From NCBI GenBank assembly GCA_025362315.1, contig JANYGP010000024.1, positions 1-64,000 on the forward strand: a stretch of DNA of 64,000 nucleotides, given 5' to 3'. Positions within the stretch are counted from its first letter, which is position 1. The number at the start of each line of letters is the position of its first letter. Shown here piece after piece: positions 5,015 to 63,291 of the stretch. This stretch comes from Polaromonas sp. (GTDB lineage: Bacteria; Pseudomonadota; Gammaproteobacteria; Burkholderiales; Burkholderiaceae_C). A program made the position numbers and the translations under genes. Under the pieces are notes generated by a model. The model was not told where the DNA came from. It saw nothing but the letters and a program-made list of their open reading frames with translations, and did not search any database.

Positions 5015-6202
5015 ATGAACCTAAAAAAACACAGTGTCACTGTTTTGGGCTCGACGGGATCGGTTGGAGTCAACACGCTGGATGTGATTGCTGCGCATCC
5101 TGACAAGTTTGAGGTTTTTGCACTGAGCGCTGCCACCCGCGTCGACGCGCTGTTGGCCCAATGTGTGCAGTTCAAACCGCGATACGCAGTCATGGCCAGC
5201 GCACCGCATGCGCATGACCTGGCTGAAAAATTAAAGGCAAATAGCCTTAAAACCGTTGTTTTACATGCGCTAGACGCTCTTGAAATAATAGCATCACACG
5301 AAGATGTTGATACTGTGATGGCTGCTATTGTTGGGGCTGCCGGGCTGGCATCCTGCATGGCTGCTGCCCGGACAGGCAAACGCCTGCTTTTGGCCAACAA
5401 AGAGGCGCTGGTGGTTGGCGCAGAGATCTTCATGGAGGCTGTACAGTCTGGTGGCGCCCAACTGTTGCCCATTGACAGCGAGCATTCTGCTATTTTTCAG
5501 TCACTGCCTGATGACCCCTCAACATGGTCTGCGCGGATTGAAAAAATCATTTTGACGGCTTCAGGTGGGCCATTTCTCAGGCGTGATCTGTTGACTCTCA
5601 GGCACGCAACACCGCAAGAAGCGTGTGCGCACCCGAACTGGACCATGGGGCAAAAAATCTCGGTTGATTCTGCAACCATGATGAACAAGGCGCTGGAAGT
5701 CATTGAGGCAAAGTTCCTGTTTGGTTTGCACCCATCACAGATAGAAGTTGTTATACATCCACAAAGCATTGTTCATTCAATGGTGCAATATCTGGACACC
5801 TCCGTGGTGGCCCAGTTGGGCACACCTGACATGCGTGTGCCGATTGCTTATGGCCTTGCCTGGCCAGGCAGGATTGCCTCGGGAGCAAAAGCGCTGGATT
5901 TCACGGCTTTTGCCAACATGAGTTTTGAAAAGATGGACCTGATGCGCTTCCCCGGTTTACAACTTGCCTGGGATGTTCTGGCAGCGCCCCGCGGCACGCC
6001 AGCCATTTTGAATGCAGCCAACGAGGTTGGTGTGGCAGCATTTCTTGACAAAAAAATACGCTTTGACCAGATTCATGCAGTGAATCTTGCAACACTGGCA
6101 GCTGTCGCTGCACCTGCTGTTCACGACGTGTCGGACCTGCTTGAGTTAAATTTAAGAGCCCGGGCTTTCGCACAGAATTTTGTCTGCTCCATGGAGTTGT
6201 GA
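5015..6202 (+). CDS. dxr: 1-deoxy-D-xylulose 5-phosphate reductoisomerase
   Basis: Dxr catalyses the committed NADPH-dependent step of the MEP isoprenoid pathway, giving 2-C-methylerythritol 4-phosphate. The 395-residue protein has the N-terminal GSTGSVGVNTLDV nucleotide-binding loop, LLANKEALVV, the metal and substrate segment LPIDSEHSAIFQ, and TASGGPF. The open frame extends 800 bases upstream through cdsA in another frame, but homology begins at the ATG at 5015. Residues 85-93 (ALDALEIIA) are encoded by a short form of the dispersed repeat. Confidence 0.97.
   Translation: MNLKKHSVTVLGSTGSVGVNTLDVIAAHPDKFEVFALSAATRVDALLAQCVQFKPRYAVMASAPHAHDLAEKLKANSLKTVVLHALDALEIIASHEDVDTVMAAIVGAAGLASCMAAARTGKRLLLANKEALVVGAEIFMEAVQSGGAQLLPIDSEHSAIFQSLPDDPSTWSARIEKIILTASGGPFLRRDLLTLRHATPQEACAHPNWTMGQKISVDSATMMNKALEVIEAKFLFGLHPSQIEVVIHPQSIVHSMVQYLDTSVVAQLGTPDMRVPIAYGLAWPGRIASGAKALDFTAFANMSFEKMDLMRFPGLQLAWDVLAAPRGTPAILNAANEVGVAAFLDKKIRFDQIHAVNLATLAAVAAPAVHDVSDLLELNLRARAFAQNFVCSMEL
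5267..5292 (-). repeat. Short form of the dispersed repeat, inside dxr
   Basis: This 26-base segment (GCGCTAG..GCTC.TGAAAT.ATAGC) matches a segment in gpsA (62656-62681) at 22 of 26 positions by eye. Both are read in the same frame (A-L-x-A-x-E-I-I-A). It shares the terminal ATAGC and the overall layout of the longer dispersed repeat. Membership of that family is an inference. Confidence 0.5.
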
Positions 6203-6203
6203 A

Positions 6204-7667
6204 ATGTTGACTTTATTGGCCTTTGTCCTTGCACTTGCCGTGTTGATTGCCATCCATGAATATGGTCATTACAAGGTGGCAGTGCTGTGCGGTATCAAGG
6301 TACTGAAATTTTCCATCGGTTTTGGCAAACCCATTTACACCTGGCGCCTGAAAGGCAAACCGACTGAATTTTGCATTGGCATGCTGCCCCTGGGTGGTTT
6401 TGTCAAAATGCTGGATGAACGCGAAGCGCCAGTCGACGCAGCCGAGCGGCACCTGGCCTTCAATACCCAGCCACTTAAATCGCGCGCTGCAGTGGTGGCC
6501 GCCGGCCCTGCTGCCAATTTGTTGCTGGCAATCTGTCTTTACAGTGCATTGAACTGGATTGGTTTGCAAGAACCCAAAGCGGTTCTGGCCAGTCCTGTGG
6601 CAGGCTCTGTTGCTGAAAAAGCAGGCTTGCGTGGCCATGAACTGGTACAGGGATTTGGATTTGACGATGAAGAAATTCAAAACATCCGGTCATTTGAAGA
6701 CCTGCGCTGGCAGTTGATGCAAGCTGCACTGAATGGCCGCAATTTACGTCTGGCAGTCAGCAAAAATGACAGCAGCGCCCCAAGTGATGCCAAAGATGCG
6801 TCAACGCGGGAGGTCAATTTGAAATTTCAGAACTTTGAAGCAGCTGAAGTGGACAGCCAGTTTTTCCGGCGGATTGGCATCGTAGGTCCCTGGACACCGC
6901 CAGTCATTGGCATGGTCGTACCCGATGGACCTGCATTTAAGGCGGGTTTACTGGCGGGAGACATTGTTCAACGTGTTGACAACACTGACATTGTTGATGG
7001 TCAGCAACTCAGGCAACTTATCAGGTCCGCTGGAAGCGTCGGTTTGGGCAATGCCAATGGCACTGGTGCTGGCAACAGCGCAGGCAATCGGGCTTCGGGC
7101 AATGTTGCTCTACTCACTGGTGTCGTTCTGACTCAAACCTGGGTCGTGAGCAGAAATTCAAAAACACTTTATTTGCCTCTCATGCCAAAGCTGGCGGCGG
7201 ATGGCAAGCTCACGGTTGCCAAAATTGAAGCATCTATTGGCGCAGCGCCTGAATTTGTCACTGTACGTTATGGCTTGTTCGATGGGCTTTGGCGCGGCAT
7301 GGCGCGCACCTACGACTCGTCAGTTCTCACATTAAAAATGATGGGGAAAATGCTGCTTGGCGAAGCCTCTTTGAAAAACCTGAGCGGGCCCCTCACCATT
7401 GCCGACTACGCTGGTAAATCTGCCAGCATGGGCGTGACTGCGTATCTGCTTTTTTTGGCAGCCATCAGTGTCAGCCTGGGCGTTCTTAACCTCCTGCCTT
7501 TGCCTGTCCTGGACGGGGGGCACCTGATGTATTATCTTTGGGAGGGTGCGACTGGGAAAACAGTCTCTGATGCATGGATGCAGGGTTTGCAGCGCGGCGG
7601 TGTCGCTGCATTGCTTGGCATGATGTCAATCGCCATGTTTAACGACCTTACCCGGCTTTTCGGCTGA
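6204..7667 (+). CDS. rseP: RIP zinc metalloprotease RseP (site-2 protease)
   Basis: RseP is an intramembrane protease that cuts the anti-sigma factor RseA and signal-peptide remnants. The zinc site HEYGH (His18, Glu19, His22) lies in the first membrane helix and the third ligand region NLLPLPVLDGGH (Asp437) in a C-terminal helix. Two PDZ domains lie between. At 487 residues it is longer than the roughly 450 of the E. coli protein. The surplus includes a Gly/Asn/Ala-rich stretch near residues 280-305 and a Ser/Asp-rich one near 190-205. It starts one base after the dxr stop. Confidence 0.95.
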   Translation: MLTLLAFVLALAVLIAIHEYGHYKVAVLCGIKVLKFSIGFGKPIYTWRLKGKPTEFCIGMLPLGGFVKMLDEREAPVDAAERHLAFNTQPLKSRAAVVAAGPAANLLLAICLYSALNWIGLQEPKAVLASPVAGSVAEKAGLRGHELVQGFGFDDEEIQNIRSFEDLRWQLMQAALNGRNLRLAVSKNDSSAPSDAKDASTREVNLKFQNFEAAEVDSQFFRRIGIVGPWTPPVIGMVVPDGPAFKAGLLAGDIVQRVDNTDIVDGQQLRQLIRSAGSVGLGNANGTGAGNSAGNRASGNVALLTGVVLTQTWVVSRNSKTLYLPLMPKLAADGKLTVAKIEASIGAAPEFVTVRYGLFDGLWRGMARTYDSSVLTLKMMGKMLLGEASLKNLSGPLTIADYAGKSASMGVTAYLLFLAAISVSLGVLNLLPLPVLDGGHLMYYLWEGATGKTVSDAWMQGLQRGGVAALLGMMSIAMFNDLTRLFG

Positions 7668-7751
7668 TTCCAGATGTTGTGTGCATCTGGGCATCAACCC
7701 GGGTCATTTCTGATCTTCCCAGGTCCATTCACCGTTTATTCCTTGAAGTTC

Positions 7752-10564: not shown

Positions 10565-10610
10565 CCAACAGGGTTTGGACGGCGCGCATGCCGGATGATG
10601 GTGAATTTGC

Positions 10611-12118: not shown

Positions 12119-12130
12119 GAGGTTGTGAAC

Positions 12131-12922: not shown

Positions 12923-12928
12923 CACCCG

Positions 12929-14080
12929 ATGCAGAAAGCGCCCACAGTGGCGATGGTTGCGGGCGAGACTTCTGGCGATTTGTTGGCGGGGCTTTTGCTC
13001 GATGGTTTGAAAACCCGTTGGCCCGGCTTGCAAGCCTTCGGCATCGGTGGGCCACAGATGGCGAAAAAGGGTTTTGACGCCTGGTGGCCCAGTGACAAAC
13101 TGGCCGTGCGCGGCTACGTCGAGGTGCTGCGCCATTACCGCGAAATTGTCGGAATTCGCGAGCAAGTCAAAACCCGCCTGCTGAACTCTCCGCCCGATAT
13201 TTTCATTGGTGTGGATGCGCCAGACTTCAACCTTGACCTGGAAGCGGCACTCAAAGCCAAAGGCATCAAGACCGTGCATTTTGTCAGCCCGTCCATTTGG
13301 GCCTGGCGGGCAGACCGTGTTGAAAAAATCCGCCGCAGCGTTGACCATATGCTCTGCATTTTCCCGTTTGAAGTCGCTTTGCTGGCACAGCACGGCATCG
13401 CTGCCACCTACGTTGGCCATCCGCTGGCCAATGTCATCCCAATTCAGCCAGACCGGCGTGCTGCCCGTGCCAGCTTGGGCCTGAGCGAAGCAGATACTGT
13501 TGTTGCCATCCTGCCGGGCAGTCGAAAGTCCGAAGTTCAATACCTCGCCCATAGGTTTTTTAAAGCTGCAGCGCATATAAATAGGGCGCGACCAGCTATT
13601 AAATTTATAGTACCTGCAATTCCCGCGTTGCAGCCCGAAATTAAAAGCATTGCCAGTCAGGTCGGCGTGCAAAACCTGCAAATCTTCACAGGCCAGTCGC
13701 ACACCGCACTTGCCGCCTGTGATGTCACATTGATCGCCAGTGGCACTGCCACGCTGGAGGCAGCGCTGTTCAAGCGCCCGATGGTGATTGCCTACAACAT
13801 GAACTGGCTGTCCTGGCGCATCATGCAGCGCAAAAAACTGCAGCCCTGGGTGGGTTTGCCAAATATTTTGTGTGAAGAGTTTGTGGTGCCCGAGCTGCTG
13901 CAGGGTGCTGCAACGCCTGAAGCCCTGGCTGATGCTGTTTTGAAGTGGGTGAATACCCAGGCGAATGAGCCTGCCAAAATACAAGCCCTGGAACAACGTT
14001 TTACCCGCCTGCACGCTGAGCTGCAGCGGGACACCCCAAAACTGGCCACCGATGCAATCAAAAAAATTCTTGAAAGCTGA
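12929..14080 (+). CDS. lpxB: Lipid-A-disaccharide synthase
   Basis: LpxB (glycosyltransferase family 19) joins lipid X and UDP-2,3-diacylglucosamine. The 383-residue protein shows the N-terminal [21 protein letters not shown] and LPGSRKSEV segments, and [11 protein letters not shown] in the C-terminal half. It begins six bases after lpxA. Residues 215-230 are encoded by a copy of the dispersed repeat in frame, giving [16 protein letters not shown] between two conserved blocks. The C-terminus overlaps rnhB by 29 bases. Confidence 0.96.
13571..13617 (-). repeat. Dispersed repeat copy inside lpxB
   Basis: The segment contains the repeat core AGCTATTAAATTTATAGTA preceded by a degraded form of the hairpin half (GCGCATATAAATAGGGCGCG). 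It matches the copies in the rRNA methylase, the DUF4149 gene and the nuclease gene in the same orientation and the same reading frame (A-I-K-F-I-V here). The gene is not interrupted. Confidence 0.8.
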
Positions 14081-14669
14081 GCAGGCCGCTTTGCTGTGGG
14101 ACACACCTGGCCTGGTGGCAGGCGTGGACGAAGCTGGGCGCGGCCCACTGATGGGCCCTGTTGTGGCGGCCGCAGTGATTCTGGACGAACTCAATCCCAT
14201 CAAAGGACTGGCTGATTCCAAAAAACTCACAGCTTTGCAACGCGACAGGTTGTACGATGAAATTCACGCCAGGGCGCTGTGTTTTTCTATTGCGATGGCC
14301 ACGGTGGAAGAAATCAATGAATTGAACATCTTGCAGGCCACGATGTTGGCCATGAAGCGCGCGGTTGAAGGTTTGCGGCTTAAGCCGCACAAGGCGCTGA
14401 TCGATGGCAATCGGCTACCCATGCTGAATATTCTTGCAGAGGCCATTGTCAAAGGCGATACAAAAGTACCGGCAATTTCGGCAGCATCCATATTGGCAAA
14501 AGTCACGCGAGACCGCTGGTGCGCCAAGTATGACCTTGTCTTTCCCCAATACGGCTTTGCCGGACACAAAGGTTATGGCACCACAGCCCACCTGCTGGCA
14601 CTGCAGGCGCATGGGGCTTGTCCGCAACACCGCAAATCATTTGCACCGGTGGCAGCGGTGCTGTTATGA
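14052..14669 (+). CDS. rnhB: Ribonuclease HII
   Basis: RNase HII removes ribonucleotides from DNA duplexes and RNA from RNA-DNA hybrids. The 205-residue protein has the catalytic N-terminal motif [10 protein letters not shown] (Asp26, Glu27), the [17 protein letters not shown] segment, and [11 protein letters not shown]. The open frame runs further upstream inside lpxB, but homology starts near [10 protein letters not shown], so I use the ATG at 14052. The overlap with lpxB and with the next gene (ATGA) suggests one transcript. Confidence 0.95.
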
Positions 14670-15460
14670 CGCAGGCACCCGAGCGCATCACCTCCAGCAG
14701 CAATCCACTGATCAAGGAGTTACGCAAGCTTGGCACTGACAACACTGCTTACCGCAAACAGGGCAGGGTGTGGCTGGAGGGTGACCATTTGTGCCGTGCA
14801 GCGCTGCTGCGCGGCGTCAAGCCTGTTTTTAGTCTTGTTTCTGAGTCTTATTGGCCGCTAGCCCAATCAATGTATGCGCAAGCAGCTATTAAAAACATAG
14901 TAGTTCCAGATGCGCTGTTCGCCCAGATCAGCTCGCTTGAGTCACCTGGTGGCATGGGCTTTGTGATGGATTTGCCAGCTGAATTACCGTTGTCACCGCT
15001 GGTGTCCAGCGTCATCCTCGACCGCGTTCAGGATGCCGGCAATGTGGGCTCAATTTTGCGCAGTGCCGCTGCATTTGGCTTTGGCCAGGTGATTGCGCTC
15101 AAGGGCTCCGCTGCCCTGTGGTCACCCAAGGTATTGCGATCGGGCATGGGTGCGCATTTTGGTTTGAAGTTGATTGAAGGCACTGACATACAAGCTTTGA
15201 CCACGCTTGGCGTACCCCTGGTTGTCACCAGCTCGCATGAGGGGGATTTTTTGGGTCAGGCCAGGCTGCCCACACCCTGCGCCTGGGTTATGGGCCACGA
15301 AGGTCAGGGCGTCAGTGAGCTGTTGATGAAGCAGGCAACCATCAAAGTACGCATTGCGCAGCCGGGCGGTGAAGAGTCGCTCAATGTGGCCGCTGCAGCA
15401 GCGATTTGCCTGCATTTCTCTTCTGCACAAAACAGCCTAACCAATGGGCAAAGGCTATAA
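14666..15460 (+). CDS. TrmH/SpoU family RNA 2'-O-methyltransferase
   Basis: This 264-residue protein is a SPOUT-fold methyltransferase that uses S-adenosylmethionine to methylate ribose in rRNA or tRNA. An N-terminal substrate-binding domain (residues about 1-100) precedes the knotted catalytic domain with [33 protein letters not shown] and the [12 protein letters not shown]-type third motif. The exact RNA target is not evident. The start overlaps rnhB. Residues about 65-79 ([15 protein letters not shown]) are encoded by a dispersed repeat copy. The stop codon overlaps a TATAAT. Confidence 0.9.
14857..14903 (-). repeat. Dispersed repeat copy inside the SpoU methyltransferase gene
   Basis: It reads GCTAGCCCAATCAATGTATG followed by CGCAAGCAGCTATTAAAAAC and ATAGTAG, a close match to the repeat orientation seen in lpxB. 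It lies in the linker between the N-terminal domain and the catalytic knot, in frame, with the shared A-A-I-K-N-I-V peptide. Confidence 0.85.
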
Positions 15461-22371: not shown

Positions 22372-22806
22372 ATGCGCTACCGCTTTGGTTTGATGGTGGC
22401 GGCGCTGTGGTGGGGCAGCCTCACGGCGCTGGGTTTTATCATCGTGCCCCTGTTGTTTGTAAACCTGCCCAGCCCAGCCGCAGCTGGGCAAATGGCTGCC
22501 AGGCTTTTTACAGCACAGACATGGCTCAGCATAGCCTGCAGCATGTTTCTGCTCCTTATTTTTAATCAAAAAGACGCTGTAGCAGCCGATAATAGGTCGC
22601 AAACAGCTATTAAATTTATAGTGGCTGGTTTGCTGCTTGCAGTGTTGGTCGAATTTGGCTTGTCACCCCGCATCGTCAGCGCCCGGGCTGATGGTGGTAA
22701 TTTGAAGCTTCTGCACGGCTTGGGCAGTGCGATGTATTTCGGTCAGTGGATTTGCAGCGGGTTTGCGCTGTGGCGCTTGACCCAAACAACCAAGCCTGGC
22801 GTCTAG
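22372..22806 (+). CDS. DUF4149 family small membrane protein
   Basis: The 144-residue protein has four predicted membrane segments, opening with RYRFGLMVAALWWGSLTALGF and ending with a segment including YFGQWICSGFALWRL. This matches DUF4149 (TMEM205-like) proteins found next to greA in betaproteobacteria. Function is unknown. The frame could begin at a TTG at 22369, but the adjoining ATG at 22372 is preferred. The stretch after residue 68 is encoded by a dispersed repeat copy, giving a T-A-I-K-F-I-V peptide that leads into the third membrane segment. Confidence 0.8.
   Translation: MRYRFGLMVAALWWGSLTALGFIIVPLLFVNLPSPAAAGQMAARLFTAQTWLSIACSMFLLLIFNQKDAVAADNRSQTAIKFIVAGLLLAVLVEFGLSPRIVSARADGGNLKLLHGLGSAMYFGQWICSGFALWRLTQTTKPGV
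22575..22625 (-). repeat. Dispersed repeat copy inside the DUF4149 gene
   Basis: The core ACAGCTATTAAATTTATAGT follows a partly degraded hairpin half. It is in the same orientation and reading frame as the lpxB and methyltransferase copies. It falls between the second and third membrane segments and the frame stays open. Confidence 0.8.
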
Positions 22807-26913: not shown

Positions 26914-26944
26914 GAGCAACCTTACAAATATTTAGAGTCTGTAT

Positions 26945-26992
26945 GCTATAAATTCAGTAGCTGCTTGCGCCCGTATTGTATGGGCTACAAGC
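26945..26992 (+). repeat. Dispersed repeat copy between ugpB and ugpA
   Basis: This is the most complete intergenic copy. It reads GCTATAAATTCAGTAGCTGC then TTGCGCCCGTATTGTATGGG and CTACAAGC. The second half can fold (GCCC...GGGC) around GTATTGTAT. A second small inverted repeat (CTATT / AATAG) follows toward ugpB at about 26998-27012. No gene is present in the gap. Confidence 0.85.
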
Positions 26993-27018
26993 ATTTTCTA
27001 TTCTGAAAATAGACGGTT

Positions 27019-28523: not shown

Positions 28524-31500
28524 ATGAACGCACCCACGCAATTTGACAGACTGAACGTTCTCTTGCCAGAGACAAAGCCGCAAGAAAACCGCATCCGCGA
28601 GATTCCGTATAACTACACGTCCTTTTCGGACCGCGAGATTGTTATTCGCTTGTTGGGAACGCGTGCTTGGGGCTTGCTGAACCAGTTGCGTGGCGAGCGC
28701 CAGACCGGCCGGTCTGCCCGCATGTTGTACGAGGTGCTGGGCGATGTGTGGGTGGTGCAGCGCAATCCGTATCTGCAGGACGACATGCTGGATAACCCCA
28801 AGCGCAGAAAGCTTTTGACAGATGCACTTCAGCATCGGTTGACAGAAGTTGAAAAACGCCGCACACCAGATGTGGACAGCCACCGGGATGCCATCGTAGG
28901 CGAGCTGCTTGCAGCTGCGCGCGATGCCGTAACCCGCTTTTCAAAGTCGTTCGAGGAGATTTATGACCTGCGGCGCCTGGCCAGCCGCCGCTTGAGCAAA
29001 CTGACCCAAAAGGACAATATCAAGTTTGATGGTTTGTCCCGCGTCTCGCATGTCACTGATGCAACCGACTGGCGGGTCGAATACCCGTTCGTGGTGCTGA
29101 CGCCGGACACTGAAGTGGAAATGGCAGGCCTGGTCAAGGGCTGCATTGAACTGGGGTTGACAATTGTCCCGCGCGGCGGTGGTACGGGCTACACCGGTGG
29201 CGCGATTCCACTGACATGGAAGTCAGCGGTCATCAATACCGAAAAGCTCGAAGCCATGACCGAGGTTGAAATGACTGCGTTGCCAGGTCTGGCCAGCCCG
29301 GTAGCAACAGTCTGGACAGAAGCCGGCGTGGTCACCCAGCGCGTGGCCGATGCAGCAGAGCGCGGCGGCTTTGTCTTTGCAGTCGACCCGACATCAGCAG
29401 AAGCATCGTGCATCGGCGGCAACATCGCCATGAACGCAGGCGGCAAAAAAGCTGTGCTGTGGGGCACCGCGCTTGACAATCTGGCCAGCTGGCGCATGGT
29501 CACGCCAGATTCGCAGTGGCTCGAAGTGACCCGCATCAACCACAACCTGGGCAAGATTCACGATGCCGAGCTGGCAAGCTTTGAGCTGAAGTATTTTGAA
29601 GCCGACGGCAAAACCTTTGTGCGTCAAGAGCGGCTAGACATCCCGGGCAAAAGCTTTCGCAAACAAGGCCTGGGCAAAGACGTGACCGACAAGTTTTTAA
29701 GCGGCCTGCCCGGCATACAAAAAGAAGGCTGCGACGGCCTGATCACCAGTGCCCGCTGGATCGTGCACCGCATGCCGGTCCACACCCGCACGGTGTGCAT
29801 GGAGTTTTTCGGCAATGCCAAAGACGCCGTGCCTAGCATTGTAGAAATCAAGGATTTCATGTTTGCCGAGCAAAAGCGCAGCGAAGCAGCAGGTTCCCCG
29901 GTGTTGCTGGCCGGGCTGGAGCACCTGGACGACCGCTATTTGCGCGCGGTGGGTTACGCCACCAAATCTAAACGTGGCGGCTTGCCCAAGATGGTTTTGA
30001 TCGGCGACATTGCAGGCGATGATGCGGATGCTGTGGCCAGAGCAACCAGCGAGGTTGTGCGCATTGCCAATTCACGCAATGGTGAAGGTTTTATCGCCAT
30101 TAATCCTGAAGCCCGCAAAAAGTTCTGGCTGGACCGCAAAAAAACCGCTGCCATTTCACGCCACACCAATGCCTTCAAAATCAACGAAGACGTGGTGATT
30201 CCGTTGCCGCGCATGGCTGAGTACACAGATGGCATTGAGCGCATCAACATTGAACTGAGCCTGGCCAACAAGATCAGGTTGTGCGATGCGCTGGAGGCTT
30301 TTCTAAGCAAGGGCAATTTGCCGCTGGGCAAGGCTGAAGACGCGGGCGATGTGCCATCGCCTGAGATGCTGGAAAGCCGGGTTGCACAGGCATTGGCGCT
30401 GGTGGCCGAGACACGTGCGCTGTGGGCTGGCTGGCTGCAAAACGTCGAAACGCTGTTCGTGCAATTGCAAGACCACTCTCTGCGCGCCAGCTGGAAGGCA
30501 CAGCTCAAAGCGCCATTACAAGCCGTTTTTACGGGCGGCGCGTTTTTGCCGATATTCAACGAATGTGTGGCGATCCACAAGCGCGTGCTCAAGGGCCGCG
30601 TATGGGCTGCTCTGCACATGCACGCAGGCGATGGCAATGTACATACCAACCTGCCCGTCAACAGCGACGACTACGAGATGCTGCAAACCGCCCGTCATGC
30701 GGTCGAACGCATCATGGTGCTGGCGCGCTCGCTCGACGGCGTGATTTCTGGCGAGCACGGCATAGGAATCACCAAGCTGGAGTTTTTGACCGATGCTGAA
30801 CTGAAACCGTTCGCCGATTACAAGGCCAGGGTGGACCCTGAGGGGCGTTTTAACAAAGGCAAGTTGCTACGAAATAAGGAGCTGCTCGCGCCCGTATTGA
30901 ATGGGCTAGAGGCTAAAAACACACCTGAAATCAGCCAAAAAGGGCCTCTTTTGGCGGATTTGACGAATGCCTACACGCCAAGTTTTGGCCTGATGGGCCA
31001 TGAATCGCTGATCATGCAGCAGTCTGACATTGGTGCAATAGCCGCCAGCGTTAAAGACTGCTTGCGCTGCGGCAAATGCAAGCCGGTTTGCGCCACCCAC
31101 GTGCCACGCGCCAACTTGCTGTACAGCCCACGCAACAAGATTTTGGCAACTTCATTGCTGGTTGAAGCATTTTTGTACGAAGAGCAAACGCGGCGTGGCG
31201 TGTCCATCAAGCATTGGCAGGAGTTTGAAGACGTGGCCGACCACTGCACCGTGTGCCACAAGTGTCTGAGTCCGTGCCCGGTTGATATTGACTTTGGCGA
31301 AGTGTCAATGAACATGCGCAACCTGCTGCGCAAAATGGGTCAAAAAACCTTCCGCCCCGGCAATGCAGCAGCAATGGTGTTTTTAAACGCGACGAGCCCG
31401 CAAACCATCAAGCTGATGCGCAGTGCGATGGTTGACGTAGGCTTCAAAGCCCAGCGGCTGGCCAACAGTTTGTTCAGACGCCTGGCACGCAAGCAAACGT

Positions 31501-32516
31501 CCATGCCACCTGCTACCAATGGCAAGGCACCGATCAAAGAGCAGGTGATTCATTTCATTAACAAGAAGATGCCAGGCGGGTTGCCGAAGAAAACCGCACG
31601 GGCATTGCTGGACATTGAAGACAAGGACTACGTGCCGATCATCCGCAATCCAAAGGCCACCACAGCCGAGACGGAAGCAGTGTTTTACTTTCCTGGCTGC
31701 GGATCTGAACGCCTGTTCAGCCAGGTCGGTTTGGCCACCCAAGCCATGCTGTGGCATGCGGGTGTGCAAACCGTGTTGCCGCCCGGCTATTTGTGCTGTG
31801 GCTATCCGCAAAAAGGCAGCGGCCAGTTTGACAAAGCCGACAAGATGATCACCGACAACCGGGTGCTATTCCACCGCGTGGCCAACACGCTGAACTACCT
31901 CGACATCAAAACCGTGGTGGTGAGCTGCGGCACCTGTTATGACCAGTTGCAGGGTTATGAATTCGACAAAATTTTCCCGGGCAGCCGCATCATTGACATT
32001 CACGAGTATTTGCTTGAAAAAGGCATCACTCTCAGGCCTGAAGGTGGTCAAGGTGCAGGGTACCTGTTTCACGACCCGTGCCACAGCCCGATGAAGCTGC
32101 AGGAGCCAATGAAAACTGTGAAGGCGCTGCTGGGCGACAACGTCATCAAAAACGAGCGCTGCTGCGGTGAGTCCGGCACGCTGGGCGTGACGCGGCCTGA
32201 TATTTCAACCCAGGTACGCTTCAGAAAAGAGGAAGAGCTGCGAAAGGGCGAAGCAGCTCTCAACGAATTGACGGAGGGCTCTGCAAGTGGTGCAACTGGT
32301 GCAAGTGCAGCCACTGAAAAAGCAAACGTCAAAATTTTGACCAGCTGCCCGAGTTGTCTGCAAGGCCTGTCGCGTTACCAGAACGACATGAAAAACGGGC
32401 TGCTGGAGGCCGACTACATCGTCGTTGAAATGGCCAACCAGATGCTGGGCAAAGACTGGCTGCAAACCTATGTGGATTCAGCAAACCGTGGCGGCATTGA
32501 GCGGGTTCTTGTGTGA
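28524..32516 (+). CDS. Large FAD-binding oxidase / iron-sulfur oxidoreductase fusion (DUF3683 type)
   Basis: This 1330-residue protein fuses an N-terminal DUF3683-like segment, a PCMH-type FAD domain ([12 protein letters not shown] near residue 217), an FAD-oxidase C-terminal domain ([26 protein letters not shown]), two 4Fe-4S motifs ([11 protein letters not shown] near residue 846, [12 protein letters not shown] near 907) and two cysteine-rich CCG domains (FPGCGSE...CCGYP; HDPCHSP...CCGESG). The layout is like GlcD plus GlcF in one chain, so a membrane-associated D-2-hydroxyacid (lactate/glycolate) dehydrogenase is likely. Residues 781-797 are encoded by a dispersed repeat. Confidence 0.88.
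30865..30914 (+). repeat. Dispersed repeat copy inside the FAD/iron-sulfur oxidoreductase gene
   Basis: The repeat half GCGCCCGTATTGAATGGGCT at 30889-30908 is nearly identical to the ugpB-ugpA and ligase copies. It lies in frame in the linker between the FAD-oxidase C-terminal domain and the first 4Fe-4S motif, adding [12 protein letters not shown]. Confidence 0.9.
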
Positions 32517-42078: not shown

Positions 42079-43164
42079 ATGCAAGACCTGATCATTCAAC
42101 GACCTGAAGGCCTGTATTGCCCTCCAGGCGACTTTTACATTGATCCATGGCGCCCTGTTGAACGCGCTGTTATCACCCATGCACATGCTGACCATGCTCG
42201 TACCGGACACGGCCACTATCTGGCCGCAGCCCCGGCGGAAGGTGTGCTCAGAGCCCGGCTGGGTCAGGGCATTGCATTGCAAGCTGTCCAGTATGGGGAC
42301 ACAGTCAGCCACAACGGCGTGACTGTGTCGCTGCATCCGGCAGGTCACGTGCTGGGGTCTGCGCAAGTGCGCTTGCAGCATGGCGGCCAAACCTGGGTGG
42401 CAAGTGGCGACTACAAGGTTGCGCCAGACGCCACCTGCATGCCGTTTGAAGCGGTTCGCTGCGACGTGTTCATCACCGAGTCAACTTTTGGAATGCCAAT
42501 TTATCGCTGGCGACCGGATCCGGAAGTGTTTGCTGAAATCAACGCATGGTGGGCAGCCAACGCAGCAGTGGGCCGGGCCAGCGTGCTGATGTGCTACAGC
42601 TTTGGCAAGGCGCAGCGCGTTTTGAGCGGGGTTGATGCATCCATCGCGCCAATAGTCGTGCACAGTGCAATCCAGACGCTCAACACCGCGTATCGCGATG
42701 CGGGCGTTGCTTTGCCTGAAACCCGTCTGGTCACAGAGGTCGGTGACCCAGCAGACTTCAAACGTGCCCTTGTTTTGTGCCCACCGAGCGCTGCAACAGG
42801 CCCGTGGATCAAAAGATTTGGCGACTTCAGTGATTCTTTTGCCAGTGGCTGGATGCAACTTCGAGGTGCTCGCAGGCGCGGCGGTTACGACAAGGGATTT
42901 GTGCTCAGTGACCACGCCGACTGGCCAGGCCTGATGGGTGCGATTGGCGCGACTGGTGCCAACCGGATCATCGTCACGCACGGCAGTATTCCAGTCATGG
43001 TGAGGTACCTGTCAGAGCAAGGCCTGCAGGCGGAGTCCTTTGACACTGAATATGGCGATGATGCGGCGGAAGAAAAAGCAGAAGGCATCAAAGAAGAACG
43101 GAAAGACGATAAAAAAGAAGATCGGAAAGACGATAAAAAAGAGCTGGGTACGGCCGTCCATTGA
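42079..43164 (+). CDS. Ligase-associated DNA exonuclease (metallo-beta-lactamase fold)
   Basis: The 361-residue protein has the metal site HAHADH (His34, His36, Asp38, His39), AGHVLGSAQ and SGDYK, typical of beta-CASP/MBL nucleases paired with ATP-dependent ligases in bacterial DNA damage response. The C-terminal 30 residues are highly charged and contain a 24-base tandem duplication. The ATG at 42079 is preferred over a TTG at 42073. Its stop overlaps the TTG start of the ligase, so the two are coupled. Confidence 0.9.
   Translation: MQDLIIQRPEGLYCPPGDFYIDPWRPVERAVITHAHADHARTGHGHYLAAAPAEGVLRARLGQGIALQAVQYGDTVSHNGVTVSLHPAGHVLGSAQVRLQHGGQTWVASGDYKVAPDATCMPFEAVRCDVFITESTFGMPIYRWRPDPEVFAEINAWWAANAAVGRASVLMCYSFGKAQRVLSGVDASIAPIVVHSAIQTLNTAYRDAGVALPETRLVTEVGDPADFKRALVLCPPSAATGPWIKRFGDFSDSFASGWMQLRGARRRGGYDKGFVLSDHADWPGLMGAIGATGANRIIVTHGSIPVMVRYLSEQGLQAESFDTEYGDDAAEEKAEGIKEERKDDKKEDRKDDKKELGTAVH
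43099..43142 (+). repeat. Two tandem copies of a 24-base unit at the exonuclease 3' end
   Basis: The 20 bases CGGAAAGACGATAAAAAAGA occur at 43099-43118 and again at 43123-43142, a 24-base period. The units encode an eight-residue Lys/Asp/Glu/Arg peptide. In-frame gain or loss of units would change the charged tail length without affecting the nuclease domain. Confidence 0.9.
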
Positions 43165-44855
43165 AACACTTTGCCGACCTCTTTACGGAACTGGACAGCA
43201 CCACATCCACCCTGGCCAAAGTCGCTGCCATGCAGGCGTATTTCAAAGTGGCACCCCCGCAAGATGCAGCGTGGGCCGTGTATTTTTTGTCTGGTGGCAA
43301 GCCCCGGCAGGTGGTCAAAACCGCTGCGTTGCGGGCACTTGCCTGTGAGGCAGCAGGCATTGACGACTGGTTGTTTGACGAGTGCTATCACGCGGTCGGT
43401 GACCTGGCCGAAACCATTGCCTATGTGCTTCCACTGGATTTTGAGCCTTCTGATGTGGGGCTTGCTGTGTGGATGGAAGAGCGATTGCTGCCCCTGCGCG
43501 GTTTGAGCGAGGAAGAGACTGCTTTTCGCATCAAACGCTATTGGCGTGAATTGGATGCGCGGGGGCGGTTTTTACTGATCAAACTGGTCGGAGGCAGCTT
43601 TCGCGTGGGTGTCAGCAAGTTGCTGGTGCAACGCGCACTGGCTGCACACGCAGGGCTGGACGCCAAACGGGTGGCCCAGCGCATGATGGGTTATGCCGAT
43701 GCCAAAGTGTTGCCAACTGCCCGAAAATTTCAGGCATTGATTGCCCACACTGAAAGCGGCGCATCTGATGTCATGGACGCAGGTCAGCCCTACCCGTTTT
43801 TTCTGGCACATCAGCTTGATGCAGTGCTGGGTGAATTTGACGCCAAACTGGGCCCTGTCAGCAACTGGCAAGTCGAGTGGAAATACGACGGCATACGTGG
43901 GCAAATCGTCAAGCGGGCAGGGCAGGTCTGGGTCTGGTCGCGAGGTGAAGAACTGGTGACGGAGCGTTTCCCGGAAATTGTGGCGCTGGCCTCCGGCCTG
44001 CCCGACGGCACGGTGCTGGACGGTGAAATCATGGTGTGGGTTGCAAACGCGCCAGCCGCGTTTGCGTTGTTGCAGCAGCGCATCGGGCGTAAAACATTGG
44101 GTAAAAAAATTCTTGCTGATGCTCCGGTCACCTTCATGGCCTACGACGTGCTGGAAGCCAACGGGCAGGACATCCGAATGCAGCCCCAGCATGCAAGGCG
44201 GCAACAGCTTGAGCAAATTCTGAGCGGAAGCGAATTGAAACTTTCACCGATTGAGCGTCTTCAATCATGGGCTGACTTTGCCTTGTTGCGCGGTGAATCC
44301 AGGGCGCGTGGTGTTGAAGGGTTCATGCTCAAGCGCATGGACGCTGCCTACGGGACTGGCCGCACCAAGGCAGACGGCTTGTGGTGGAAATGGAAGATAG
44401 ACCCCATGACCATTGACTGCGTTCTGATCTATGCGCAAGCAGGTCACGGCCGCAGGGCGTCGCTGTATACCGACTACACATTTGCGGTGTGGAATCGCCC
44501 TCCGGCTGATGCGCAGGAAGCGCAGGCCGTTGTCAAAGCCATTGAAAAACGTGACCCTGCCCAGGAGGGCGCACTGCAACTGGTGGCCTTCGCCAAAGCG
44601 TATTCCGGGCTGACAGACGAGGAATTCAAACAAATTGACAGCGTGGTCCGCAAAACAACGCTGGAAAAGTTTGGACCGGTACGCAGCGTCAAACCAACGC
44701 TGGTGTTCGAGCTGGGCTTTGAAGGCATTAATTTCAGCCCACGTCATAAAAGCGGCATTGCGGTGCGGTTTCCGCGCATGCTGCGCATTCGGCATGACAA
44801 ACCCATGCATGAAGCCAACACTCTGGAAGACCTGAAAATGCTATTAAAAACGTAG
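43161..44855 (+). CDS. ATP-dependent DNA ligase (damage-response type)
   Basis: The 564-residue protein has an N-terminal DNA-binding domain, an adenylation domain with the active lysine Lys241 in WKYDGIRGQIVKR, and an OB-fold C-terminal domain (GRTKADGLWWKWK motif V region). It belongs to the group found with the MBL exonuclease and an Lhr-type helicase. The start is a TTG at 43161 overlapping the exonuclease stop. The last codon and stop (44850-44855) fall inside a dispersed repeat copy. Confidence 0.92.
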   Translation: MKHFADLFTELDSTTSTLAKVAAMQAYFKVAPPQDAAWAVYFLSGGKPRQVVKTAALRALACEAAGIDDWLFDECYHAVGDLAETIAYVLPLDFEPSDVGLAVWMEERLLPLRGLSEEETAFRIKRYWRELDARGRFLLIKLVGGSFRVGVSKLLVQRALAAHAGLDAKRVAQRMMGYADAKVLPTARKFQALIAHTESGASDVMDAGQPYPFFLAHQLDAVLGEFDAKLGPVSNWQVEWKYDGIRGQIVKRAGQVWVWSRGEELVTERFPEIVALASGLPDGTVLDGEIMVWVANAPAAFALLQQRIGRKTLGKKILADAPVTFMAYDVLEANGQDIRMQPQHARRQQLEQILSGSELKLSPIERLQSWADFALLRGESRARGVEGFMLKRMDAAYGTGRTKADGLWWKWKIDPMTIDCVLIYAQAGHGRRASLYTDYTFAVWNRPPADAQEAQAVVKAIEKRDPAQEGALQLVAFAKAYSGLTDEEFKQIDSVVRKTTLEKFGPVRSVKPTLVFELGFEGINFSPRHKSGIAVRFPRMLRIRHDKPMHEANTLEDLKMLLKT

Positions 44856-44887
44856 CTGTTAGCGCCCGTATTACTTGGGCTACAGCA
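44840..44887 (+). repeat. Dispersed repeat copy spanning the ligase stop codon
   Basis: It begins with GCTATTAAAAACGTAGCTG, in which TAG is the ligase stop codon, and continues with TTAGCGCCCGTATTACTTGG and GCTACAGC. Orientation is the same as the copies at 26945 and 30865. The C-terminal residues L-L-K-T of the ligase are repeat-encoded. Confidence 0.9.
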
Positions 44888-44947
44888 TTAAAATCTCAAC
44901 AAAATTCAGATCCAAATGATTTTGGCAGTGTTTGGTAACATGTGACC

Positions 44948-48019: not shown

Positions 48020-48598
48020 ATGGTGTTCATATGTAAGATAAATAGTATTGCAGTCCATATAATACGGGCGCAAGCAGCTATAAAATTAGTAGCATTTGTC
48101 AACTTATTATTTTTCGTACCGGTGTTTGCCCAAGCTGCCATTCAGGCCCGCTATGTTCAGTTTGGCACCGTCTCGCGTGTGGTGGATGGCGACACGGTCT
48201 GGGTTCAAATCGGCAGCCATGCAAAGCCACTCAAAGTGCGGATTCAGGGCATAGATGCGCCTGAAATATGCCAGAGTGGCGGTCAGCAGACCCAAGCGGC
48301 TCTGAAAGGCAAAATATTGGGGCAGACTGTGACAGTCACGTCAAGTTCGCGCGATGACTTTGGACGAACTGTGGGCATGTTGCATCTGCACGAGCAGGAT
48401 ATTGGCCGCTGGATGGTCTCTCAGGGATATGCGTGGGTGTACAGCTTTCGGCACAAAAAAGGCCCGTATGCGGGCGAGTTTGCAGCTGCGCAAGGAGCCA
48501 GGCTTGGCATATTCGCCAATGCACAAACACAGGAGCCCAGAGAATTTCGCAAGGCAAATGGAAGCTGCCGGTTGTCCGCTTATCGTCCTACAAGCTAA
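48020..48598 (+). CDS. Secreted thermonuclease (SNase-like)
   Basis: The 192-residue protein has a staphylococcal nuclease fold: SRVVDGDTVWV, VRIQGIDAPE (Arg74, Glu82), and DDFGRTVGML (Arg116), the catalytic positions of the family. An N-terminal hydrophobic segment ending near VFAQAA is a signal peptide. Residues 11-25, including the start of that segment, are encoded by a dispersed repeat. No alternative start lies between the ATG at 48020 and the nuclease domain except a late GTG. Confidence 0.88.
   Translation: MVFICKINSIAVHIIRAQAAIKLVAFVNLLFFVPVFAQAAIQARYVQFGTVSRVVDGDTVWVQIGSHAKPLKVRIQGIDAPEICQSGGQQTQAALKGKILGQTVTVTSSSRDDFGRTVGMLHLHEQDIGRWMVSQGYAWVYSFRHKKGPYAGEFAAAQGARLGIFANAQTQEPREFRKANGSCRLSAYRPTS
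48050..48093 (-). repeat. Dispersed repeat copy at the 5' end of the nuclease gene
   Basis: It reads GCAGTCCATATAATACGGGC, GCAAGCAGCTATAAAATTAG, TAGC, a good copy in the same orientation and reading frame as those in lpxB, the methyltransferase and the DUF4149 gene. It encodes A-Q-A-A-I-K-L-V within the signal peptide. Confidence 0.9.
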
Positions 48599-55102: not shown

Positions 55103-55116
55103 TTGATTGATTGATT
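55094..55116 (+). repeat. (ATTG)5 tetranucleotide tract across the response regulator stop
   Basis: Five ATTG units followed by ATT run from 55094 to 55116. The stop TGA (55100-55102) lies inside. All three frames through the tract contain TGA early, so slippage would change only the last few residues. Confidence 0.9.
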
Positions 55117-55235
55117 AAATGGTTAATTGACCCAATGGGTGTTTGAATAATTAACAATATAAGGGGAGCAACTGCACACCGAGTTTTATTGCAATCGAAT
55201 TTTTGCCAAATGCTGAAACAAAAAGCACAACACAT

Positions 55236-55634: not shown

Positions 55635-55826
55635 CTGCTGATGCAAAGGAGCAATTACGGAACGCATGGGTGATTTTGCATGTAAAGCAATGCTCAAAGT
55701 GTAGGAAATTTCCCACTGTTCAAGCTCTGTCGGCGCCTGCCCACACATTGGCAATGCAGCAGATGACCCTTAATTTTAAATGCAATGCAGACAATCAAAC
55801 AGCCTGTTCAAAGGAATCCACAATTT

Positions 55827-58681: not shown

Positions 58682-58690
58682 ACTGCAAAA

Positions 58691-60130: not shown

Positions 60131-60235
60131 AAGAACACCTTGATTGATAAGCGGCAAAAAGACAACTGATGCAATATACACCTACGACCAAAGCCGCGTT
60201 AGTCAGTTCCGCAGATTCCTGTATTTGCACACGTT

Positions 60236-60931
60236 TTATGTGTTTTCAAGGTAATAGTGCCTGATTGGGTTGAGTTCGGCATCCAGCTCATACACAAGCG
60301 GCACACCGTTGGGAATATTCAGGCTAACGATGTCTGAATCAGAAATATCGTCCAGGTATTTGACGAGTGCGCGAATTGAATTGCCGTGGGCAGCAACAAC
60401 GACACGTTTGCCAGCTTTGATGCCAGGCACCATGGCTTCGTTCCAAAATGGCAGCACGCGCTCAACGGTGTCTTTCAGGCATTCCGTCAGCGGCACCTGG
60501 CCGGGTTTCAATTTGGAATAACGCCGGTCACTGCGCTCACTGCGTTCGTCATCAGCTGCCATGGCGGGTGGTGGAACGTCGTAGCTGCGCCTCCACAACA
60601 GCACTTGATCGTCACCAAATTTTTTCGCGGTTTCAGCCTTGTTCAAACCCTGCAAATCGCCGTAATGCCTTTCGTTGAGCCGCCAGCTATTGACCACCGG
60701 CAACCAGGTTCGGTCCATGGCATCCAGTGCGTGCCAGAGCGTGTGGGTGGCGCGCTTGAGCATGCTGGTGTGGGCCACGTCAAAGTCAAAGCCGGATTGC
60801 TTGAGCAATCGCCCTGCGTTTTTAGCCTGCGCCATGCCAGTGTCCGTCAGCGGAACATCGGCCCAGCCAGTAAAGCGGTTTTCCAGGTTCCAGGTTGATT
60901 CACCGTGGCGGATCAGGACAAGTTTGTACAT
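60236..60931 (-). CDS. gpmA: 2,3-bisphosphoglycerate-dependent phosphoglycerate mutase
   Basis: GpmA interconverts 3- and 2-phosphoglycerate in glycolysis. The product has the [17 protein letters not shown]-terminus with catalytic His9, the [19 protein letters not shown] segment, and the second His in [11 protein letters not shown]. From the ATG at 60931 it is 231 residues; ATG 60937 and TTG 60940 lie just upstream in frame and are also possible. It is divergent from the rhodanese gene. Confidence 0.94.
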
Positions 60932-61046
60932 ATTCATCAAGGTTCAAAAGAGGCTAAAACACAAGCGGATCAGGCTTGCAACGTCGTTATTCTAAAATCA
61001 CGGGCTTTGCCGCATATTTATCCAAAGTTTTCTAAAAAGGTACACC

Positions 61047-61463
61047 GTGAAATTTTTGATTGACAACTGGATGCTGATTTCCATTGCCCTGGCGTCCGGC
61101 GGCATGCTGGTCTGGCCCATGATGGCCAGCAGCATGAATTCAGGAGCATTGAGTGCAAGCGGCGCTGTCACGCTGATCAACCGCGAAAAAGCAGTTGTCA
61201 TTGATGTCAGCGAATCTGAAGAATTTGCAGGTGGTCATGTGGGTGGTGCCAAAAATGTTCCGTTCAGTGAGCTGGAAAGCAAACTTGGCGCCGCTGTTAA
61301 AAACAAGGCTTTGCCACTTATCTTGGTGTGTGCCAATGGCGCACGTGCCAATCGGGCAGTGGCAATCGCCAAGAAACTGGGCTACGAGCAAGCTCAGGCA
61401 TTGGGCGGCGGACTCAAAGCCTGGAAAGAGGCCAATCTGCCTGTTGAAAAAGCGGTTGCCTGA
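61047..61463 (+). CDS. Membrane-anchored rhodanese-like protein
   Basis: The 138-residue protein has one N-terminal membrane helix (residues about 9-26) and a rhodanese domain with the catalytic Cys95 in LVCANGARA. It may transfer sulfur or handle redox, and commonly lies next to grxC and secB. The start is a GTG at 61047, six bases after AAAAAGG. It is followed by grxC after 12 bases. Confidence 0.9.
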   Translation: MKFLIDNWMLISIALASGGMLVWPMMASSMNSGALSASGAVTLINREKAVVIDVSESEEFAGGHVGGAKNVPFSELESKLGAAVKNKALPLILVCANGARANRAVAIAKKLGYEQAQALGGGLKAWKEANLPVEKAVA

Positions 61464-61475
61464 GCTGAAAGACCC

Positions 61476-61733
61476 ATGCAAACCGTCAAAATTTACACCA
61501 CTGCGACCTGCCCTTATTGCATTGCGGCCAAGCAGCTGCTGGCCAAACGCGGCGTGACTGAGCTGATCGAGATTCGCGTTGACCAGCTGGCGGGGGAGCG
61601 CGAAAAAATGATGGCGCTGACCCAGCGCCGAACTGTTCCCCAAATATTCATTGGCGCCACCCATGTAGGCGGCTGCGACGACCTGATGGCACTGGACAGC
61701 AGTGGCGCTTTGCTGCCCATGCTGAACTCCTGA
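61476..61733 (+). CDS. grxC: Glutaredoxin 3
   Basis: The 85-residue thioredoxin-fold protein has the active site CPYC (Cys12, Cys15), the cis-Pro segment RTVPQIFI and HVGGCDDLMAL, all typical of GrxC. It uses glutathione to reduce disulfides in the cytoplasm. It lies between the rhodanese gene and secB, the usual order. Confidence 0.96.
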   Translation: MQTVKIYTTATCPYCIAAKQLLAKRGVTELIEIRVDQLAGEREKMMALTQRRTVPQIFIGATHVGGCDDLMALDSSGALLPMLNS

Positions 61734-61774
61734 AATTTTTAACGATCCACTTTTATCCAACCTGAAAGAATTCC

Positions 61775-62275
61775 ATGGCCGAAACCAGTCTTGACCCCGT
61801 GTTCCAGATCCAGCGCGTCTACCTCAAGGACATGTCGCTTGAGCAGCCCAATTCACCTGAAATATTGCTGAACCAGGAGCAACCCAATGTTGACATTCAG
61901 CTGGGCGTAGAAGCCGCGCCGGTGGCCGATGGCCTGTATGAAATAACGGTCACAGCCACGGTTCACGCCAAAATAGCTGAAAAAACGGTGTTTCTGGTGG
62001 AGGCAAAACAGGCCGGAATATTTGAGCTGCGCAACATGCCGCAGGAGCAGTTAGGCCCAATTTTGGGCATCGCTTGCCCACAAATCGTGTACCCCTACTT
62101 GCGCGGCAATGTGGCGGACATCGTGCAGCGTGCAGGCTTTCCGCCTGTGCATCTGGCTGAAATCAACTTTCAGGCCATGTACGAGCAGCAGCAAGCCCAG
62201 GCCCAGGCGACGCAGGTTGCAGGGGCCAGTGATCCGGCGGCCATCAGCCCTCCTGCACCCCAGATTATTGTTTAG
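61775..62275 (+). CDS. secB: Protein-export chaperone SecB
   Basis: SecB keeps precursor proteins unfolded and passes them to SecA. The 166-residue protein includes [19 protein letters not shown], the hydrophobic core around [20 protein letters not shown], and [21 protein letters not shown]. The C-terminal tail is Gln/Ala-rich. It lies 41 bases after grxC and 14 bases before gpsA. Confidence 0.97.
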
Positions 62276-62289
62276 CCATAGGCCAGCGT

Positions 62290-63291
62290 TTGAACATCGC
62301 TGTCATCGGTGCCGGTGCGTGGGGCACCGCACTGGCCGTTTGCGCAGCGGATACGCATCGCGTCAATTTGTGGGCGCGAGATGCCGACCAGGCCAATGCA
62401 ATGGCCGCAAGCCGAATCAATGAGCGCTATCTGCCAGGCATCACACTGCCAGACGGTTTGCATTTGTCGGGTGGTTCAGCGAAACTTGATCAGGTTTTGA
62501 CGGGTCAGGATCTGATCATTGTTGCCACTCCGGTGAGTGGTTTGCGCGAGGCCTTGCACTCTGTCAGGCATGTCAAAACGCCTGTCGCCTGGGTGTGCAA
62601 AGGCTTTGAAACCTCAAAAAATGAATCATTTGGCCTGTTGGCGCACGAAATATGTGCGCTAGCTGCTCCTGAAATTATAGCGGGTGTGTTGAGCGGGCCA
62701 AGTTTTGCGCATGAGGTCGCACGCGGCCAGCCAACGGCGCTTGTGGGTGCCAGCCAGCATGCAGCCGTGCGTGATGCGCTGGTGGCAGCCTTTCACAGCC
62801 CAAAGTTGCGTGTTTATGCCAGCGACGACATGGCCGGTGTCGAAGTTGGCGGCGCGGTGAAAAATGTCTTGGCCATTGCAACTGGCCTGTGTGATGGCCT
62901 TGGCTTGGGGTTGAACGCCAGAGCAGCGCTGATCACACGCGGTTTGGCAGAAATGAGCCGTCTTGGTGTGGCGTTGGGAGCCAAAGCCGAAACATTCACC
63001 GGACTGTCGGGCCTGGGCGATCTGGTACTGACAGCAACCGGTGATTTAAGCCGCAACCGCAAGGTGGGGCTGGCATTGGCCGAGGGCAAAACGCTCGCTG
63101 AAATCATGGCCGGGCTGGGACACGTTGCCGAAGGTGTGTACTGCGCAAAAAGCGTTGTTCAGCGTGCTGGCAGCCTGGGCGTTGACATGCCAATATCACG
63201 CGCTGTGGTGGCCCTGCTCGATGGGCAGCTGACTGCGCTGCAGGCAGTGGCCGAATTGATGGGGCGGGAGCCCCGGATTGAAGCGGCTTGA
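62290..63291 (+). CDS. gpsA: Glycerol-3-phosphate dehydrogenase [NAD(P)+]
   Basis: GpsA reduces dihydroxyacetone phosphate to glycerol-3-phosphate for phospholipid synthesis. The 333-residue protein has the Rossmann [10 protein letters not shown] near the N-terminus, [40 protein letters not shown] and [17 protein letters not shown]. No ATG is near the start; the TTG at 62290 gives the conserved N-terminus directly. A short form of the dispersed repeat encodes ALAAPEIIA near residues 123-131. Confidence 0.95.
62656..62681 (-). repeat. Short form of the dispersed repeat, inside gpsA
   Basis: GCGCTAGCTGCTCCTGAAAT followed by TATAGC matches the dxr segment at 5267-5292 at 22 of 26 bases and is read in the same frame. 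It lies just before the conserved VLSGPSFA block. Confidence 0.5.

Follow-up and report, generated by a model that had tools for sequence, protein, structure and literature searches.

A 66-bp motif at shared gene positions across Comamonadaceae: proposed recognition sites that may serve the uptake of self DNA

Why should one repeated DNA motif be found, again and again, inside the reading frames of conserved genes? The question is raised by a 64,000-nucleotide stretch of a Polaromonas sp. genome (assembly GCA_025362315.1, contig JANYGP010000024.1, positions 1 to 64,000 of the forward strand), hereafter the window, in which a reading made without database searches, the sequence-only reading, had pointed to seven copies of an element of roughly 48 bases and two 26-base relatives. 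The genome is a Polaromonas-like draft of 3.48 Mb with a completeness of 88.5% and a contamination of 6.29%, and the closest sequence to its LpxB, among the loci returned, is a Polaromonas sequence (84% to L001). The motif recurs at the same gene positions in many genera, is constrained at the DNA level where it is abundant, and is lost or altered at many sites together. On a case that we judge to be evenly balanced, it may consist of recognition sites of a trans-acting DNA-binding activity, most likely self-DNA uptake sequences for natural transformation.

The nine places named in the window form a single family. A profile of 68 columns, built from 82 copies on other contigs of the genome, recovers exactly these nine sites and no others in the window, with scores from 39.4 to 76.0, while 40 first-order Markov windows give no score above 2.9; the possibility that shuffled DNA might yield as many matches is thereby answered in favour of the family. 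The two supposed 26-base relatives (5267 and 62656) do belong to it, yet they are full-length sites with scores of 46.5 and 50.9, and the length of about 48 bases was itself too short, conservation spanning about 66 bp instead. The sites, with their profile scores and the domains or families of their genes, are as follows.

5228 to 5293, plus strand: motif in dxr (1-deoxy-D-xylulose 5-phosphate reductoisomerase, 5015 to 6202, plus strand); score 46.5; Pfam PF02670.
13547 to 13612, plus strand: motif in lpxB (12929 to 14080, plus strand); score 48.2; NCBIfam TIGR00215.
14837 to 14902, plus strand: motif in a SpoU-family RNA methylase gene, here called rlmB (14666 to 15460, plus strand); score 59.6; Pfam PF00588.
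22558 to 22623, plus strand: motif in a DUF4149 gene (22372 to 22806, plus strand); score 39.4; Pfam PF13664.
26944 to 27009, minus strand: intergenic motif, no called gene; score 76.0.
30865 to 30930, minus strand: motif antisense in an FAD/Fe-S oxidoreductase gene (28524 to 32516, plus strand); score 62.3; Pfam PF02913, PF01565 and PF02754.
44839 to 44904, minus strand: motif over the 3' end of an ATP-dependent DNA ligase gene (43161 to 44855, plus strand); score 63.3; Pfam PF01068.
48029 to 48094, plus strand: motif at or just before the N-terminus of a nuclease-homologue open reading frame (ORF; 48020 to 48598, plus strand); score 64.1; Pfam PF00565.
62617 to 62682, plus strand: motif in gpsA (glycerol-3-phosphate dehydrogenase, ORF 62290 to 63291, plus strand); score 50.9; Pfam PF07479.

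As had been noticed, only the copy at 26944 to 27009 is fully intergenic, and one copy crosses a stop codon, that of the ligase gene, which ends at 44855. Whether the copy at 48029 to 48094 is genic or upstream is unsure, as our own gene caller starts the ORF 48020 to 48598 further down.

The abundance of the motif extends far beyond the window. The core pattern GCAGCTATNAAANNNATAG, with at most two mismatches, has 254 matches in the genome, compared with one for a reversed control pattern. In a sample of 464 kb, comprising the window and 400 kb of other stretches (13% of the genome), a profile built in part from these very copies gives 94 raw matches with scores of 8 or more, against none when the sequence is reversed; at a score of 15, 91 distinct sites are obtained, which scales to about 680 copies per genome. 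The motif is over-represented, many Comamonadaceae carrying it several hundred times per genome, an abundance of the kind seen in the DNA uptake sequences (DUS) of Neisseriaceae and the uptake signal sequences (USS) of Pasteurellaceae. Conservation runs from -45 to +20 relative to the core start and is close to zero beyond, save for a slight signal between -65 and -63. Written in the same direction as the lpxB copy, the consensus drawn from 85 copies reads.tTT....at.AAAT..G.CT.tAGCCCA..tAatAcGGGCGC.AGCAGCTAtT.Aat.aATAGCA and carries 53.5 bits, where about 13.3 bits would specify the sites; genic and other copies are equally conserved (52.8 and 54.6 bits). AT-rich tracts seem to recur at a period of about 11 bp, and the consensus holds two inverted repeats that look like the halves of stems. 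Among 136 copies, 11 of the 12 column pairs of the repeat arms are within about 3 of expectation, and the pair -19/-7 shows a weak excess (84 against 71.4 expected, with G-T pairs counted); since the paired columns do not covary, what is conserved appears to be the sequence and not a stem. The highest pairwise identity is 0.86 among the 91 copies of the window genome and 0.88 among 67 copies of P. glacialis, values that give no hint of recent copying.

Placement in the larger sample, with genes called by our own simple hexamer-based caller, qualifies the impression that the copies live mostly inside genes: six of the nine in the window are wholly genic, but only 40 of the 91 in the 464 kb are, 43 being intergenic and 8 overlapping a gene end, in stretches whose coding share is roughly 81-90% each. 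The description of a dispersed repeat family tolerated within conserved genes is correct. The genic copies occupy several frames, on either strand (20, 2 and 2 on the same strand, 11 and 5 on the opposite one, making 16 of 40 antisense to their host gene), so they do not encode one shared peptide. Intergenic copies prefer convergent gene pairs (13 of 42 against 34 of 227, p 0.025), and across eight stretches the copies are spaced more evenly than chance would give (variance 0.58 against 0.81, p 0.029), while none of the four stretches tested singly departs from exponential gaps (p 0.066-0.69). In the longest stretch (240 kb), no strong strand polarity is seen, with 16 copies on the plus strand and 25 on the minus strand. 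In a LolB-like lipoprotein gene (G000 C90:95728-96246, equivalent to L115:15728-16246), an antisense copy encodes LIAGC, which resembles a lipobox.

The sites are shared between species. This was surveyed in 80 named loci around lpxB, which yield 126 sites with the profile when read as they are and none when reversed; 110 of the 126 lie at four orthologous gene positions (profile score of at least 15), namely lpxB (40), rlmB (40), dxr (16) and DUF4149 (14). Genomes were also sorted by their whole-genome core counts alone, with a cut-off of 40 matches that was chosen after the counts were known, which makes 27 of 44 genomes rich (40 or more) and the other 17 poor. With a position counted as occupied at a profile score of at least 15, the lpxB site is occupied in 26 of 27 rich genomes and none of 17 poor ones, the rlmB site in 25 of 26 and none of 17, and the DUF4149 site in 13 of 16 and none of 14. 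Five sites in poor genomes (one in lpxB, four in rlmB) score between 0 and 15, as expected of eroded relics. The occupancy pattern mostly holds in 30 further genomes picked for within-genus contrasts, the exceptions being two congeneric genomes (157 and 189 matches) that lack the lpxB site, and one with 15 matches that has both sites. Ten of the 16 remaining sites are located 9.0-10.2 kb 3' of the lpxB start, likely a single intergenic site past carAB-greA (at 19.0-20.2 kb in L001, L007, L009, L011, L014, L027, L029, L034 and L059, and at 10.75 kb in L006); repeat-poor JS666 (L007) retains it with a score of 26.

Constraint acts on the DNA itself. Among codons for the same amino acid, the rate of difference inside the motif was compared with that outside it. 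In rich-rich sisters, 92 of 426 such codons differ within the motif, against 2593 of 7786 elsewhere (odds ratio 0.55, p 2e-7), while the relation is reversed in rich-poor pairs (78 of 117 against 1303 of 3024, odds ratio 2.64, p 6e-7) and poor-poor pairs show no constraint in the motif region (115 of 262 against 1982 of 5218, p 0.06); in this test the labels of 13 of the 32 rich-rich rows, of 1 of the 12 rich-poor rows and of most of the poor-poor ones came from the site and not from the genome count. The test was repeated with independently counted genomes only, that is, with 7 rich-rich, 5 rich-poor and 3 poor-poor pairs. The counts are then 49 of 206 against 1260 of 3497 in rich-rich pairs (ratio 0.55, p 3e-4), 66 of 98 against 1072 of 2551 in rich-poor pairs (ratio 2.85, p 1e-6), and no constraint in poor-poor pairs (27 of 99 against 452 of 1744, ratio 1.07, p 0.81). 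A rare codon marks the motif as well, the Ile before Val-Pro being ATA in 32 of 33 motif-bearing lpxB genes, a group defined by the site and thus partly circular; species without the lpxB motif have ATC or Val codons at that position in most rows shown. A comparison of codon homozygosity between motif-bearing and motif-free rows of lpxB, rlmB and DUF4149 is circular, with groups set by the site itself.

The motif also disappears as a whole. Of 299 genomes of the family, drawn from 141 genera, 78 reach the cut-off of 40 core matches (a hand count from the table, recounted), and counts diverge sharply within single genera, as in 222/1/309, 106/5/3/1, 157/189/8, 255/7/81 and 121/8/5. In 387 genomes from other families of the order, no core total exceeds 25, as judged by eye. 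When a tree is built from 81 loci and the motif columns of lpxB and rlmB are masked, at least 10 changes are required for the rlmB state and 12 for the lpxB state, counts that do not tell gain from loss; because the positions are shared, repeated loss is a simpler reading than repeated gain. JS666 and CF318 form a short-branched pair on this tree, next to the rich YR568.

Alongside loss, the motif changes in wording. P. glacialis (67 copies) and a sister genome (18) carry TTGCGCA where the window genome has TAGCCCA. Ranked by dialect score, the sites of P. glacialis and its sister stand 1 and 3 of 42 in rlmB, 2 and 1 of 17 in DUF4149, 1 and 5 of 22 in dxr, and 6 and 11 of 43 in lpxB. There are clade-specific dialects, one of which is seen repeatedly, at several orthologous positions within its clade. 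One dialect may already have been described: Tong et al. (2017; PMC5217627) list ATAGCT(N)22CAAAAG in Polaromonas naphthalenivorans CJ2 as a potential novel, unnamed motif, with 125 copies (101 intergenic, 18 genic and 6 overlapping), convergent genes common among its surroundings, and the most motif pairs in Rhodoferax ferrireducens T118 (140), according to the section of that paper concerned. As judged by the published description rather than the CJ2 genome, the two boxes with their 22-base spacer are the reverse complement of the P. glacialis consensus, and the CJ2 motif pair looks like one dialect of the present motif. The account differs in treating a spaced pair in one genome, and its section on the motif (PMC5217627) contains no genic conservation, dialects, losses or mechanism. 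Among the papers listed in the literature searched, which left subscription papers mostly outside, the motif seems to be present in PMC5217627 alone, and its absence from print elsewhere is not claimed.

How the genic copies came to be where they are can be read from protein lengths. The sequence-only reading implied that they are insertions into the frames, and this proves correct for moeA, where the insertion is clear, and in part for pepN, gpsA and fabD, but not for lpxB, the SpoU methylase gene, dxr or KefC. The motif stretch of LpxB is free of gaps in all 81 sequences, 41 of which have the motif, 35 lack it and 5 fall between, as it is in 30 of 30 further genomes and against the solved LpxB 5w8n, which we take to be that of E. 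coli. That of the SpoU methylase has no gap in 74 of 79 sequences and in 29 of 30 further genomes; three Rhodoferax-type sequences with the motif (L054, L057 and L075) have six additional residues of QNPKS type at the left motif end. DUF4149 shows no gap in 31 of 42 rows, all 15 motif-bearing rows among them, and 11 of the 21 rows without the motif differ in length. The Dxr site aligns without a gap to the solved homologue 3r0i, and KefC retains its 18-19 residues in all 16 close orthologues among 30 loci, the remainder being paralogues or distant, with the motif in 7 of the 16. Four KefC homologues (L174, L183, L184 and L187) each contain one in-frame stop codon, reflecting a pseudogene, a frame end or a sequencing error.

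In moeA, a linker carrying the motif is present in 14 of 17 rich genomes, and the motif is present in none of 13 poor ones, in which the linker is mostly a few residues long; longer motif-free linkers occur in CF318, JS666 and the genome of L066, and the rich genomes without a motif-holding linker are YR568, Curvibacter delicatus and Comamonas sp. lk. Over nine host genes compared, the clear insertion is that of moeA and three show partial lengthening, amounting to +5 at the left edge in gpsA and to +2 and +7 in fabD; for pepN, three genomes searched gave no PepN match. In-frame insertion as a general mechanism was rejected on the gap-free lpxB, rlmB, dxr and KefC, with moeA as the exception. 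Motif-free species with nearly the same LpxB peptide in other codons do exist, such as L066 with AIKFIVP using ATC. The sequence-only reading had held that the same peptide without repeat-like DNA would make the family an artefact; such near-identical peptides are found, but the verdict does not follow, because the family stands far above its controls and is held at synonymous positions.

Fixed positions, synonymous constraint and joint loss or change at many sites together point to a recognition factor acting in trans. Among known kinds of element, uptake sequences are, by analogy, the one sharing most features with the motif. Passages of PMC1939737, PMC3630211 and PMC2346458 describe known uptake sequences that form inside genes without being inserted, come in dialects, have a blocked frame and lie in genes less often than the coding share would predict. 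On the origin of such copies, the parts concerned diverge, PMC1939737 arguing for point mutation and PMC2397512 that many new DUS come by recombination and not by point mutation. The present motif resembles DUS and USS, as far as sections of PMC1939737, PMC2397512, PMC3630211 and PMC2346458 describe them, in having hundreds to thousands of copies, many of them genic, with clade dialects, in one reading frame blocked by stops and in a genic share under the coding share. By this analogy, DNA carrying the motif would be imported preferentially by a type IV pilus/ComEC route and then recombined into the chromosome; point mutations that improve the motif in tolerant stretches of genes would outspread those that spoil it, a molecular drive through which sites could arise and persist in place; and where the receptor was lost or changed in specificity, sites would erode or shift dialect together. 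It is possible, and we hold this tentatively, that Comamonadaceae have their own self-DNA recognition, with a several-fold longer uptake sequence, clade dialects and a drive that rewrites stretches of essential proteins, repeatedly switched off within genera.

Several findings weigh against the uptake proposal. Known uptake sequences have a core of about 9-12 bp and extend to about 30 bp, and the present motif is much longer and richer, at about 66 bp and 53.5 bits where about 13 are needed; it also differs in its host family, Comamonadaceae, and in being known here from sequence alone. Because of this length, it is proposed to act in the manner of DUS/USS, not to be one of them. ComEC occurs in 30 of 32 genomes (absent only in G035, which is rich, and G044, which is poor) and PilP in 47 of 50 (absent only in the rich G004 and the poor G015 and G042); being present in rich and poor genomes alike, they indicate that the machinery exists and leave the switch unexplained, and competence and pilus genes were accordingly rejected as that switch, since these two do not separate rich from poor. 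No receptor candidate was found in a search covering only ComEC and PilP. Both the maximum and the variance of pairwise identity among copies exceed those of column shuffles, and the variance means that there are classes of strength or a degree of common descent. The P. glacialis dialect also scores high at certain sites of other species, for example in L058. The true insertion in moeA and the partial lengthening in pepN, gpsA and fabD belong on the same side.

The serious rival is a chromosome-organising, replication or repair protein whose dispersed sites are kept by selection and released when the protein is lost, which we regard as rather unlikely. Joint loss, synonymous constraint, orthologous positions and the evener spacing suit it just as they suit recognition during uptake, but the information content is far above what a binding site at such density needs, the 240-kb stretch lacks strong strand polarity, and repeated within-genus loss of hundreds of sites would be costly for an essential function. 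Improbable, in our judgement, is an ancestral spread of miniature mobile elements, now fixed and eroding, of the repetitive extragenic palindromic (REP) or miniature inverted-repeat transposable element (MITE) type and perhaps moved by a REP-associated tyrosine transposase (RAYT). The inverted repeats of the consensus, the intergenic enrichment, the preference for convergent pairs and the moeA insertion speak for it, as do a RAYT-like gene (PF01797) in 29 of 32 genomes and published REPs that may sit within genes, in the part of PMC3733652 concerned. Most tested genes show no insertion, however, and synonymous constraint, the lack of any copy pair more than 88% identical and the 110 of 126 sites at four shared gene positions are at odds with mobility; the RAYT-like gene is found in rich and poor genomes alike, and the motif lies in 4 of 12 RAYT-like loci, about as its density predicts. 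GTAG/CGTC REPs resemble the motif, in the passages of PMC3733652, in being dispersed, palindromic in look, located between convergent genes and in some cases genic, and differ from it in that its arms do not covary, it has no RAYT link, its positions are fixed and no new copies appear. A RAYT-driven REP was rejected for want of both co-occurrence with the RAYT-like gene and stem covariation, and a MITE or small transposon fits poorly, near-identical copies being absent and the sites lying largely at shared positions. Mobile DNA as a carrier was also rejected: a query with one copy gave 1 weak partial match in 72,556 plasmid records and none in 50,697 phage records, which is weak evidence. Six stretches among viral_contigs (L283-L288) contain the exact pattern with the full motif (profile 35-63), as phage DNA or host flank. 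In 12 of 14 genomes compared, rich and poor alike, the RAYT-like Y1 transposase gene (PF01797; G000 C70:38448, L141), which often has a single copy, shares a contig with pilP at a distance of 6.7-16.5 kb, and it is perhaps domesticated, in conserved synteny with the pilus locus.

A transcribed structure, whether a terminator or an RNA-stability hairpin, would account for the stem-like halves of the consensus and the enrichment between convergent genes, but with 11 of 12 arm pairs near expectation, only -19/-7 in weak excess, and 16 of 40 genic copies antisense to their gene, it is very improbable. Barely credible is the idea of in-frame insertion elements like the Rickettsia palindromic elements, which lie in reading frames and add residues. 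Copies within conserved genes and the motif-holding linker of moeA recall them, but most motif sites add no residues, and the unchanged lengths of lpxB, rlmB, dxr and KefC rule them out as a general account. HIP1 of cyanobacteria is likewise an abundant motif within genes, and differs in being a short palindrome.

For the biology of the family, the motif matters in more than one way. On, off or in another dialect within one gene of sister species, and mostly at constant protein length, it provides a natural experiment on how a force at the DNA level shapes essential proteins. Should it not serve uptake, a trans factor with several hundred conserved 66-bp sites would still be notable. If it is an uptake sequence, self-specific transformation would reach a large, mostly environmental family beyond Neisseriaceae and Pasteurellaceae, and the comparison of rich with poor sisters, such as Polaromonas JS666 and CF318 with YR568, would offer a direct route to the receptor.

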